DNA of 6,737 bases from J061 sp003695725 [NCBI: Candidatus Schekmanbacteria bacterium] (lineage in GTDB: Bacteria > Schekmanbacteria > GWA2-38-11), in the NCBI GenBank assembly GCA_003695725.1, contig RFHX01000342.1, forward strand, positions 1 to 6,737, given 5' to 3'. Below, in pieces: positions 3,105-6,737 of the stretch. The notes under the pieces were generated by a model. The model saw nothing but the letters and a program-made list of their open reading frames with translations, made no database searches and was not told where the DNA came from. Position 1 is the stretch's first letter. Every line of letters begins with the position of its first letter. The position numbers and the translations under genes were made by a program.

Positions 3105-3111
3105 AAAGGTG
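3105..3111 (+). promoter_or_regulatory. Shine-Dalgarno that decides the fabD start
   Basis: AAAGGTG lies 6 nt before the ATG at 3118. The longest open frame would begin at GTG 3109, but that codon lies inside this Shine-Dalgarno and adds three residues (MIV) unlike the family start. ATG 3118 is therefore chosen. Confidence 0.75.
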
Positions 3112-3117
3112 ATTGTG

Positions 3118-4047
3118 ATGAGTGCTAAGATTGCTTTTGTCTTTCCCGGACAGGCATCCCAATATGTTGGTATGGGAAGAGAATTGTATGAAAACTATGA
3201 ATCTGCAAAAAATGTTTTTGAAGAAGCAGATAAAGCACTTGGGATAAGCATAACCTCCCTTTGCTTTGAGGGTCCTGAAGAAAGACTAAAACAAACAGAG
3301 ATTACTCAGCCTGCAATATTGACTGTGAGCATTGCCGCACACAGGGTAGTTTCTGAAAAAGGATTAAATCCACTTTTCGCTGCCGGACACAGTCTTGGTG
3401 AGTATTCAGCCCTTGTTGCGGCAGGAGTTATTGATTTTTCAGAAGCAGTGAAGCTTGTCAAAATCAGGGGAAGACTTATGCAGGAAGCAGTACCTGAAGG
3501 CAAAGGGGCTATGGCTGCCATTCTTGGAATGCAAAAGGAAGATATTGAAGATTGTATAAATTCACTTACAGGGCTCATTGTATCAGTGGCTAATTACAAT
3601 TCTCCTAAACAGACAGTAATTTCAGGCAAAAAAGAAGATGTTGAAAAAGCCGTTACACTTTTAAAAGAAAGAGGGGCAAGAAAAGTCGTAATGCTTCCGG
3701 TGAGTGCGCCTTTTCATTGTGAATTGATGAAACCAGCTGAAGAAAAACTGATACCTCTTCTTGATGAAATCAAATTCGCTCCGTCAAAGTTTCCTGTATT
3801 TGCAAATGTAGATGCAACAGAAACAAATGGCGGCGATGAAGCAAGGGAAAAATTAAAACTTCAAGTTTCCCGCTCAGTGCTTTGGCAGCAGTCTGTTGAA
3901 AATATGAGAAAAAAAGGCGTTGACACTTTTATTGAAATAGGTCCCGGCAAGGTGTTATCAGGTCTTATCAAGCAAACAATACCAAATGTAGAAATATTTA
4001 ATATCGAAGATAAAAAAACTCTTGAAAAAACCTTTTCCTCTCTTTAA
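3118..4047 (+). CDS. fabD: Malonyl-CoA:acyl carrier protein transacylase (FabD)
   Basis: FabD moves malonyl from CoA to the phosphopantetheine of ACP, supplying the extender unit of type II fatty acid synthesis in the cytoplasm. The 309-residue protein has the family's normal length. It shows the N-terminal FPGQASQ oxyanion-region motif (9-15), the nucleophile elbow GHSLGEYSAL with catalytic S92, R117 that binds the malonyl carboxylate, and the catalytic H200 in SAPFHCELM. NYNSPKQTVISG (159-170) and IGPGKVLSGL near the C-terminus are also typical. It is the first gene after the putative promoter, followed by fabG after 35 bp and then by acpP, its protein substrate. No anomaly is seen. Confidence 0.97.
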   Translation: MSAKIAFVFPGQASQYVGMGRELYENYESAKNVFEEADKALGISITSLCFEGPEERLKQTEITQPAILTVSIAAHRVVSEKGLNPLFAAGHSLGEYSALVAAGVIDFSEAVKLVKIRGRLMQEAVPEGKGAMAAILGMQKEDIEDCINSLTGLIVSVANYNSPKQTVISGKKEDVEKAVTLLKERGARKVVMLPVSAPFHCELMKPAEEKLIPLLDEIKFAPSKFPVFANVDATETNGGDEAREKLKLQVSRSVLWQQSVENMRKKGVDTFIEIGPGKVLSGLIKQTIPNVEIFNIEDKKTLEKTFSSL

Positions 4048-4082: not shown

Positions 4083-4823
4083 ATGAACAATGAAAACAGA
4101 ACAGCATTTGTTACAGGTGCTGCCCGCGGTATCGGAAGAGCAATAGCAGAAGAATTGGCAAAAGAAGGATGTGATATAGCCGCAGTGGACATCATCGAAG
4201 ACTTGCTTGCCGATACAAAAAAGGCAATAGAAGAAATTGGAAGAAAATGTCTAATCTGCGCCTGTGATGTAACATCTTCCGAAAATGTAAAAGAGGCAGT
4301 TGAAAAAACCATCAACGAATTTGGAAAGATTGATATACTTGTAAACAATGCCGGGATAACGAGGGATAATCTTCTTATAAGGATGAGCGATGAGGAGTGG
4401 GACCAAGTATTAAATATCAATCTCAAAGGAACATTCAATTGTATAAGAGCAGTGGCAAAACAAATGATGAAGGCAAGAAAAGGAGCTATAATAAACATTG
4501 CCTCCGTTGTAGGCGTAATGGGAAATCCCGGTCAAGCAAACTATGTGGCTTCAAAAGCCGGAATAATCGGATTGACTAAAAGCGCTGCAAAGGAGCTTGC
4601 ATCAAGAAACATCACTGTTAATGCAATAGCCCCCGGCTTCATTGATACGGATATGACAAAATCTCTGCCCGAAAAAGTTAAAGAAGAAATGTTAAACAGC
4701 ATTCCCTTAAAACGATTTGGAAATCCGCAAGATATTGCAGATGTAGTAAGCTTTCTCGCTTCTGAAAAAGCGTCATACATTACTGGTCAAGTCTTCAATG
4801 TAAATGGCGGAATGTATATGTAA
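4083..4823 (+). CDS. fabG: 3-oxoacyl-[acyl-carrier-protein] reductase (FabG)
   Basis: FabG is the NADPH-dependent short-chain dehydrogenase that reduces 3-ketoacyl-ACP to 3-hydroxyacyl-ACP in each elongation cycle. The 246-residue protein is a single Rossmann domain of standard length. It has the cofactor-binding TGAARGIG (11-18), D62 in CDVT, NNAG (88-91), and the catalytic tetrad N113, S141, Y154 and K158 (YVASK). The ending NGGMYM is typical of true FabG rather than a generic dehydrogenase. Its place between fabD and acpP makes the fatty acid role firm. The 34-bp gap to acpP has no terminator. Confidence 0.97.
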
Positions 4824-4848: not shown

Positions 4849-4857
4849 AATAGTTTG

Positions 4858-5094
4858 ATGACTATAGAAGAAAGAGTTAAAAAAATTGTAGCAGAAAATC
4901 TTCAGATTAGTGAAGATAAGGTAACACCTGAGAAATCATTTTTTGATGATTTAGGTGCTGATTCGCTCGATGTAGTCGAACTTGTGATGGCTCTTGAAGA
5001 AGAATTTGGAATGGAAATTTCTGATGAAGACGCTGAAAAGATAGTCACAGTAAAAGACGCTATTGACTATATTTCTGAACGCGCAAACCAGTAA
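4858..5094 (+). CDS. acpP: Acyl carrier protein (AcpP)
   Basis: This small acidic carrier holds growing acyl chains as thioesters on 4'-phosphopantetheine. The 78-residue protein has the conserved [20 protein letters not shown] segment starting at D31. S36 is the attachment serine, followed by the acidic helix II that partner enzymes recognise. The C-terminal part ([19 protein letters not shown]) is typical. The length and acidity are ordinary for primary-metabolism ACP, and the neighbours fabD and fabG exclude a polyketide-only role. fabF, which commonly follows acpP, is missing; a long hairpin and then rnc come next. Confidence 0.97.
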
Positions 5095-5102
5095 ATTAAT
5101 TA

Positions 5103-5147
5103 TGAAAGGGTGGATATGAATAGAATCTCTTTATATCCGCCTTTTTA
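5103..5147 (+). terminator. Long U-tailed hairpin between acpP and rnc
   Basis: The arms 5103-5120 and 5130-5147 can pair over 18 bp with four G-U wobbles, around a 9-nt loop (5121-5129). The GC-rich part is GGGTGGATAT against ATATCCGCCT, and a run of five T (5142-5146) follows. This is the form of a Rho-independent terminator ending the fab operon. It ends only 6 nt before the rnc start and no promoter for rnc is visible after it. It may therefore be a partial terminator or an RNA processing site instead. Confidence 0.7.
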
Positions 5148-5153
5148 ATTTAA

Positions 5154-5843
5154 ATGGATTACAAAGAATTCGAAAAAAAGATTTCATACTCATTCAATAA
5201 AAAATCCCTTATAAAAAAAGCTCTCAATCACACATCTTCCCATAAAAATAATAAAAGCGGTAAAAAAAATAAGAGAGAAAATATAACCCTTGAATTTATT
5301 GGTGATGCTGTATTAGAGCTTGCTTCAAGAGAATATCTTTTAAAGAAATATAAAACTCTTTCAGTTGGCGATATTTCAAAAATCAAAACAAGAATGGTAT
5401 CTGATAAAACTCTTTCATTTTTTGCAAAAAAAATAAATCTCGACAAATTTGTTAAAATCGCAAAAACAAAAGAGCCTCAAAGAAGAAATATGGATGCTGT
5501 CCTCGCAGCAACAATGGAAGCCGTGATAGGAGCAATTTTTTTTGATTCCGGACTTGAAAGCGCAAAAAAATTTGTAAGATATAAAATCTTTCTTCCCTTT
5601 ACCAAAAACAAAGACCTTATTAGAGAAGATTTTAAATCGATCTTTCAGGAAAAATATCAGAAAATTTATAAAAAACCTCCTGAATATTTTGTTGTAGATG
5701 AAAAAGGGCCTCCCCACAATAAAACATTTATCATAGAATTGATTCATTCAGGGCAAACTCTCGGAAGAGGGATTGGAAAAACAAAAAAAGAAGCAGAACA
5801 AAAAGCTGCTGAAAAAGCACTTACATTCTTTAAGAAAAAATGA
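5154..5843 (+). CDS. rnc: Ribonuclease III, with unusual active-site substitutions
   Basis: RNase III cuts double-stranded RNA in rRNA precursors and mRNAs as a dimer. The 229 residues match the family length. They comprise a nuclease domain (about 5-150) with the signature LEFIGDAVLEL (46-56) and MEAVIGAIFFDSG, then a complete dsRNA-binding domain (about 158-227) with GPPHNKTF and KKEAEQKAAEKAL. By ungapped alignment to the E. coli enzyme, E41, D45 and E117 are kept (E47, D51, E122), but D114 is alanine (A119), E38 is isoleucine (I44) and E65 is valine (V71). The lysine-rich stretch at 31-41 is longer than usual. The ATG follows the hairpin with no Shine-Dalgarno. The gene overlaps the radical SAM gene by 4 bp. 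Family assignment is firm; full catalytic activity is in doubt. Confidence 0.95.
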   Translation: MDYKEFEKKISYSFNKKSLIKKALNHTSSHKNNKSGKKNKRENITLEFIGDAVLELASREYLLKKYKTLSVGDISKIKTRMVSDKTLSFFAKKINLDKFVKIAKTKEPQRRNMDAVLAATMEAVIGAIFFDSGLESAKKFVRYKIFLPFTKNKDLIREDFKSIFQEKYQKIYKKPPEYFVVDEKGPPHNKTFIIELIHSGQTLGRGIGKTKKEAEQKAAEKALTFFKKK

Positions 5844-6737
5844 AGCATCTAATAATTCCAGTTTTCATACCTCACGCTGGATGCCCTCAAAAGTGCATTT
5901 ACTGCAATCAAAATAAAGTCACTCTTGAAAAAGGATTTCCAAAAACAGATGTCATTGACAGAAATGTAAACCTATACTTGAATTCTTCAAAAAAAGACAA
6001 AAGAAGTAAGAGGAAATATTCAAATATATCTAATGAGGCAATCAAAGTTGAAATAGGGATCCCTTTCTTTCGAGAGACAATAAGAGAAATAGCTTTTTTT
6101 GGAGGCAGTTTTACGGGAATAGACAACAAGATACAGAAAGAATTTCTCGATGGTGCACAGAAATGGATTTCTGCTGGAATCGTTGACGGAATCAGAATTT
6201 CAACGCGCCCTGATTTAATAAATGAAGAAAATATTGAATGGCTGAAAGAAAAGAAAGTTACGACAATAGAATTGGGCGCCCAATCTTTTTCAGACGATGT
6301 ATTGAAAAAATCTGAAAGAGGGCATTCAACTTATTCAACTATTCGCGCATCAAAAATAATCAAGAATGCTGGTTTAAGACTGGGGATTCAGCTTATGATG
6401 GGTCTTCCCAAAGAAGATGAAAAAAGTTTCATCGCTGGGATAAAGAAGGCAGTTTCTTTGAAGCCCGAGTTTATAAGGATTTATCCCTTATTAATATTAC
6501 CTGAAACAAAGATTATGGAGATGTACTTAAAAAATGAATATAAACCTTTATCGCTTGATGAAACTATTCATATGGGTGCAAAAGCGCTTAAAATTCTTTA
6601 CAAGAATAATATTCCCTGCATTCGATTTGGTTTGCCTGAAAACAATGAATATAAAGGTACATCCATAATTGGACCCTATCATCCATCGCTGAAACATATG
6701 ATTGACTCAAAACTTGCTTATGCTACGATGTATCGCA
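5840..6737 (+). CDS. Elp3-like radical SAM protein, partial (right edge)
   Basis: The frame starts at ATG 5840, sharing ATGA with the rnc stop, and is open for 299 codons to the window edge. Residues 15-22 (CPQKCIYC) give the CxxxCxxC cluster for a 4Fe-4S centre that cleaves S-adenosylmethionine. The AFFGGSFTGI stretch (85-94), STRPDLI (121-127), ELGAQSFSDDVLKKSERGH (144-162), MMGLP (186-190) and RIYPLLIL (213-220) are typical of the radical SAM domain of the Elp3 group. Elp3 itself adds an acetyltransferase domain. Short relatives without it are, as I recall, found beside rnc in clostridia, with unknown substrate. Whether this copy has such a domain lies outside the window. A basic insert (KKDKRSKRK, 51-59) lies between the cluster and GGSFTG. 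Translation is probably coupled to rnc. Confidence 0.88.
   Translation, partial: MKHLIIPVFIPHAGCPQKCIYCNQNKVTLEKGFPKTDVIDRNVNLYLNSSKKDKRSKRKYSNISNEAIKVEIGIPFFRETIREIAFFGGSFTGIDNKIQKEFLDGAQKWISAGIVDGIRISTRPDLINEENIEWLKEKKVTTIELGAQSFSDDVLKKSERGHSTYSTIRASKIIKNAGLRLGIQLMMGLPKEDEKSFIAGIKKAVSLKPEFIRIYPLLILPETKIMEMYLKNEYKPLSLDETIHMGAKALKILYKNNIPCIRFGLPENNEYKGTSIIGPYHPSLKHMIDSKLAYATMYR

Follow-up and report, generated by a model that had tools for sequence, protein, structure and literature searches.

The rnc gene studied here lies in a stretch of 6,737 nucleotides from a Schekmanbacteria genome, which as a whole we call the window, and it raises the question of whether an RNase III that lacks acids at three conserved positions still works as a nuclease. 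At the positions of E38, E41, D45, E65, D114 and E117 of the E. coli enzyme, the residues of the window protein are I44, E47, D51, V71, A119 and E122. The correspondence comes from an alignment to solved RNase IIIs and 249 homologues, and the E. coli numbering follows PMC9291653. The sequence-only reading had already named the three replacements and the three retained acids, and the alignments and codon counts bear it out, coordinates included.

A single two-domain RNase III in the window genome

We found that rnc (5154..5843, plus strand) encodes a protein of 229 residues, identified as ribonuclease III by TIGR02191, PF00636, PF00035, AlphaFold2 and VIA-align, in which the nuclease domain spans residues ~1-150 and the dsRNA-binding domain (dsRBD) residues ~160-225. 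The match to the TIGR02191 profile is full-length, at 202.1 bits against a cut-off of 166.25, and ranks 47th among the 56 rows of the profile search. The PF00636 match is followed by a C-terminal PF00035 match, confirming the earlier view that the dsRBD is intact. Among the families in the structure list compared, the AlphaFold2 model (mean pLDDT 91.8, pTM 0.76) aligned in VIA-align with E. coli 7r97 (Z 21.5, 217 residues, rmsd 7.2), A. aeolicus 2nug (Z 20.3, rmsd 7.2) and lone bacterial nuclease domains (rmsd 1.4-2.0), and the high two-domain rmsd of the model probably reflects a differing placement of the domains.

The window protein resembles the bacterial RNase IIIs of E. coli, A. aeolicus and T. 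maritima in domain order, signature, three acids and dsRBD, the E41/D45 signature and E117 of TIGR02191 enzymes being present as E47, D51 and E122, whereas the Asp of the D114 position is replaced by A119. It further differs from these enzymes in its Ile at the E38 position and in the joint loss of three acids. Mini-III enzymes consist of a nuclease domain without a dsRBD, whereas the window protein carries one. The mL44-type mitoribosomal protein (PF22935) is similar in fold, with 29.0 bits against a cut-off of 27 and Z values of up to 19.0 for the mitoribosome chains matched by the model, which are presumably mL44, but the window protein is far stronger on RNase III models and retains E47, D51 and E122. 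By the features tested, Asp114 excepted, it belongs to the RNase III family. Additionally, it is the only RNase III-domain gene found in the window genome (G000; 374 contigs, 97.8% complete), where the second RNase III or Mini-III that the sequence-only reading had thought worth a search did not appear.

Variation at the acidic positions across bacterial families

The main sample comprised 170 RNase IIIs and covered 168 bacterial families, two of which have two rows. It was made up of the window, 49 rows of the 56-row search (leaving out the window itself, G043, which is under the cut-off, the two G050 pieces and three matches that were second in their genome), 60 sequences from the high-scoring part of a wider search and 60 further ones, with L001, L032, L034 and the rRNA loci dropped as duplicates or non-RNase III. 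In the wider search 339 of 386 genomes matched TIGR02191, and about half of these matches were read. We observed that the equivalents of E41 and D45, in the window the ends of the motif E47-F-I-G-D51 (5292..5306, plus strand), and of E117, in the window E122 (5517..5519, plus strand), are invariant in all 170 rows. The D114 position, A119 in the window (5508..5510, plus strand), is occupied by D in 111 rows, N in 36, A in 8 (three of these from the window's order), S in 7, G in 4, C in 2, and T and E in one each. Non-Asp residues, most commonly Asn, are therefore found in 59 of the 170 RNase IIIs and, counting one row per family, 58 of the 168 families lack Asp there. Asp114 is thus not family-defining in practice, since these 59 enzymes belong to the same profile, and judging by these sequences its loss alone is no sign of a dying enzyme.

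The other two positions are more conserved. I44, at the E38 position (5283..5285, plus strand), faces E in 150 rows, Q in 16, D in 3 and I in one, and V71, at the E65 position (5364..5366, plus strand), faces E in 156/170 and V in 4/170. Only two rows of the 170 have non-acids at both E38 and E65, and the same two, the window and its relative G001, both of the window's family, have non-acids at all three positions. What is rare among the changes in the window RNase III is that the acids of both E38 and E65 are gone. Q169, the equivalent of E. coli Q165 (5658..5660, plus strand), is retained, as Q is in 144/170.

A second set, Firmicutes-rich and chosen by dsRBD peptides resembling those of the clade, comprised 80 named loci, none from the window's order. 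It gave the same result for E41, D45 and E117 (80/80), with D at the D114 position in 75/80 (non-Asp 5/80), E at the E65 position in 80/80 and E at the E38 position in 78/80. On a quick tree of 242 columns, with three residue columns named for exclusion, we count at least 43 changes between D and non-D at the D114 position, a rough figure given that support is weak (17 of 167 inner branches starred); the end branch of the window rnc is 0.44 long against a median of 0.62. When plasmid records were searched with rnc by tblastn, 62 records matched, all below 60% identity and outside the sample.

Two further observations came from the wider search. The rnc matches at G243:C1:261534-262193 and G367:C1:271980-272639, from the same genus, each contain one in-frame TGA, which suggests that these genomes decode TGA as an amino acid. 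No TIGR02191 match at E 0.001 was present in 47 of the 386 genomes, 36 of them within the 339 genomes that are at least 90% complete, suggesting bacteria free of RNase III or divergent forms of it.

Relatives within the order

When the window protein was aligned to its relatives in the order, we found that the same-family genome G001 carries Q44, L71 and A119, and the same-order genome G002 carries E44, I71 and A119; a profile search of a further same-order genome, G003 (~70% complete), returned no RNase III match. Across the three sequences of the order, Ala at 119 is present in 3/3, position 71 is aliphatic in 3/3 (V, L, I), and position 44 is I, Q or E, the acid being lost in 2/3. Within these three sequences, the constancy in the clade that the sequence-only reading raised for all three residues holds for A119 and for a non-acid at 71, and position 44 varies. 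Between G000 and G001 the identity of rnc is 51%, that of fabD, fabG and acpP 68-83%, and that of the gene after rnc also 51%.

These relatives bear on the reading in which an error of sequencing, assembly or alignment created the changes. The window genome assembly is fragmented, which would leave room for such an error, but the residue changes are not an assembly artefact because the separate genomes G001 and G002 carry like changes, A119 and a non-acid at 71 among them, where the sequence-only reading had allowed that close relatives might show Asp. Furthermore, the A119 codon is GCA, two base changes away from an Asp codon, and residues 119-122 align without gaps in all 170 rows up to the invariant E122. 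We regard an error as wholly improbable.

Published enzymes with changes at the same positions

The D114 residue is described as highly conserved, catalytic and metal-binding (PMC8708148, PMC5357909), and in the E. histolytica enzyme its homologue is a direct Mn ligand (PMC5357909). As PMC9291653 presents the E. coli postcleavage structure EcEEQ:RNA6, D114 alone of the four acids makes no direct contact with Mg2+, which tells against its earlier description as a metal ligand; that D114 is the labile one of the four acids in our sample fits this structure. In the same source, E38 and E65 belong to the surface that contacts RNA and lie at the ends of its valley, rather than near the dimer interface as the sequence-only reading had it, and their removal is reported to make the complex more stable and to favour cooperative cleavage. 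The E38A/E65A/Q165A variant of E. coli RNase III is the engineered 'bacterial Dicer' (EcEEQ), and both it and E38A place dimers side by side on long dsRNA in vitro and yield pieces of ~22 nt, Q165 being the residue that reads the +3 G (PMC9291653).

According to Table 1 of PMC8708148, the E. coli variants E38V and E65A have no activity in vivo. In vitro, E38A, E65A and D114A show weak activity and require excess Mg; dsRNA binding is high for E38A and low for E65A and D114A. Binding without cutting is possible in E117 mutants (PMC8708148), and A. aeolicus RNase III mutated at E40, D44, D107 and E110, with the account in PMC8138440 leaving open whether singly or jointly, bound RNA and did not cut it.

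Natural enzymes offer partial parallels. T. maritima RNase III (1o0w), for which PMC8708148 lists a biochemical study, has Val at the E65 position in the alignments, as does the window protein. Human Drosha has Asn at the D114 position of its RIIIDa domain in the alignment, in line with the D to N variation described for RIIIDa of class III enzymes (PMC5357909); RIIIDa thus resembles the window protein in having a non-Asp residue there with the other acids present, whereas Drosha is eukaryotic, has two nuclease domains and carries Asn instead of Ala. EcEEQ and the window protein both lack the E38 and E65 acids, whereas the latter is natural, keeps the Q165 equivalent and has also lost the D114 acid. 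The literature that we searched, mostly outside subscription journals, contained no description of D114 variability in bacterial RNase III or of natural E38/E65 loss.

Compensating and linked residues

We compared the 59 non-Asp with the 111 Asp rows in 1,368 Fisher tests of columns against residue classes, and found no significant compensating acid for D114 after correction (best p = 0.0015). An acid at window position 114, five residues before A119 and at the start of the helix that also bears 119 in the AlphaFold2 model, is present in 16/59 non-Asp rows vs 32/111 Asp rows (p 0.86), and in 6/8 Ala119 rows vs 48/170 overall, a difference noticed post hoc and with three of the Ala rows coming from the window's order; these counts hint at a stand-in acid for D114 in the Ala119 enzymes.

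There is at most a hint that E42 partly replaces E38, as suggested earlier. Position 42 is acidic in 8/17 rows that lack an acid at the E38 position vs 37/153 with one (p 0.08), and E42 is present in the window and G001 but absent in G002. The same position has an acid in 24/59 non-Asp114 rows vs 21/111 Asp rows (p 0.0033, uncorrected for many tests). D114 loss showed no link to E38 or E65 loss: supported branches of the tree offered only 4 independent pairs, and the D114 position is non-Asp in 5/14 rows that are non-Glu at the E65 position vs 54/156 other rows.

Gene neighbourhood and the acpP-rnc hairpin

All genes annotated in the window are on the plus strand. The rnc gene follows fabD (3109..4047, TIGR00128), fabG (4083..4823, TIGR01830) and acpP (4855..5094, TIGR00517), an order common to G000, G001 and G002, and its end is overlapped by a radical SAM gene (5840..6736, PF04055 and PF16199) that runs past the window end; the neighbour in G001 is similar. 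The window also encodes an HD-domain protein, recognised by its domain match, and a type II/IV secretion ATPase (33-1964, PF00437) that contains an MshEN domain and has a double zinc ribbon at its end (PF12773, residues 591-633); a similar Cys-rich tail is present in G001.

Between acpP and rnc we observed a long hairpin (5103..5147, plus strand), recognised by its pairing and compensating changes. Hairpins at this place in the three genomes (window 5103-5147, plus strand; L033 4719-4761, plus strand; L034 740-786, minus strand) have 18, 20 and 16 contiguous pairs, with z of -6.3, -5.9 and -7.0. The arms of G001 and G002 have 11 letters in common, and their arm pair occurs once per genome and is absent in G000 and G003; that of the window occurs once in G000. 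Against G001 and G002 the window hairpin shows four two-sided compensations (4/16 pairs; 46/48 cells paired), a number reached by 3/500 shuffles with three sequences only. Upstream of rnc at 108 loci, with guessed starts and two loci from the window's order, the longest perfect stem has a median of 7 pairs and at most 17 outside that order. A terminator scan near rnc, its rule limited to loops of 3-8, found none. The hairpin may be the acpP terminator or, by analogy, a site in the leader of rnc through which RNase III would trim its own message, as the E. coli enzyme is reported to do.

16S rRNA processing stems

Stems formed by the flanks of 16S rRNA are a classic RNase III substrate. In G001 the 16S flanks have a pairing score of 53.5 vs 60 shuffles (mean 25.0, sd 4.3, max 40.5), and in G002 a score of 44.0 vs a maximum of 39.0 in 60 shuffles. 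This test, a local pairing score on 130-nt flanks with mononucleotide shuffles, was chosen after a weak first test and after the stem had been seen by eye; the first test (RNAduplex, 250-nt flanks) gave -74.8 in G002 vs a mean of -60.4 in 200 shuffles (sd 5.9, min -78.5). In G000 the 5' arm is like the arms of its relatives, and the 3' flank falls beyond the contig end. Since the stem is retained in G001, in which the same three positions have lost their acids, this genome still seems to need RNase III. An explanation by unlinked rRNA genes and relaxed selection was dropped: the 16S and 23S genes of G002 lie near contig ends, and tRNA-Ile and tRNA-Ala follow 16S in both G002 (L267) and G001 (L270/L271).

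Alternative readings and the most probable explanation

Two alternatives would give the protein another function. It could be a weakened or dead nuclease that is now chiefly a dsRNA-binding regulator, as the sequence-only reading suggests. Weak or inactive E. coli mutants are on record for each of the three residues, E117 mutants can bind without cutting (PMC8708148), and the low rank on TIGR02191 might point the same way. We hold this to be unlikely, given that the three other acids are present as in all 170 rows, that it is the sole RNase III found in its genome, that G001 keeps a 16S processing stem, and that D114 is frequently lost in the genomes of other families. It is just as doubtful that the protein behaves naturally as the engineered bacterial Dicer does, with dimers packed on long dsRNA and products of ~22 nt. 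The in vitro behaviour of E38A and E38A/E65A/Q165A (PMC9291653) and the confinement of joint E38/E65 loss to the window's family point that way, whereas the retained Q169, the E44 of G002 and the inactivity of E. coli E38V and E65A in vivo (PMC8708148) point the other way, and no Piwi domain is present in G000-G003, leaving no evident user of ~22 nt RNAs. A link to RNAi or Cas9 was rejected, there being no Piwi in the four genomes and only sub-cut-off TIGR01865 matches in three of them (best 23.2 bits vs 100). A bolder proposal by analogy, that the window's family is a natural bacterial Dicer, with cooperative packing and siRNA-sized products, that does without the D114 acid, and that D114 is dispensable in about one third of bacterial families, appears improbable as a whole.

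We therefore favour, with good though incomplete confidence, the explanation that rnc encodes an ordinary housekeeping RNase III, an active dsRNA endonuclease working on three acids and with a less negative RNA groove. Two-metal cleavage would rest on E47, D51 and E122, the invariant acids of the sample, and the D114 position would be an outer-shell site often changed in evolution, mostly to Asn and here to Ala, where water could occupy the gap left by Ala119. That alanine is less frequent than Asn at this position counts against this explanation, as do the E. coli and A. aeolicus mutants, the Mn-binding D114 homologue of E. histolytica and the low rnc identity between G000 and G001, although the next gene is no better conserved. 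With the E38 and E65 acids absent in the window's family, the RNA groove of the dimer should be less negative, which might tighten dsRNA binding, as in E38A, though E65A and D114A of E. coli bind poorly. Of the altered metal use, weaker cleavage or shift toward RNA binding foreseen by the sequence-only reading, what is based on D114 loses ground, as 58/168 families share that loss, whereas weaker cleavage would fit the E. coli mutants. Activity is most likely, considering the residues and their distribution, the single copy, the predicted fold, the gene order and the stem of the relative, and the window RNase III, though slightly unusual, probably works as an RNA-cutting enzyme.

Overall, the survey of 168 families marks D114 as the sole labile member of the four catalytic acids, and the natural Asn, Ser and Ala enzymes would be ready-made probes of two-metal catalysis. 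In the window's family, the natural loss of E38 and E65 may be compared with a laboratory reagent, EcEEQ.
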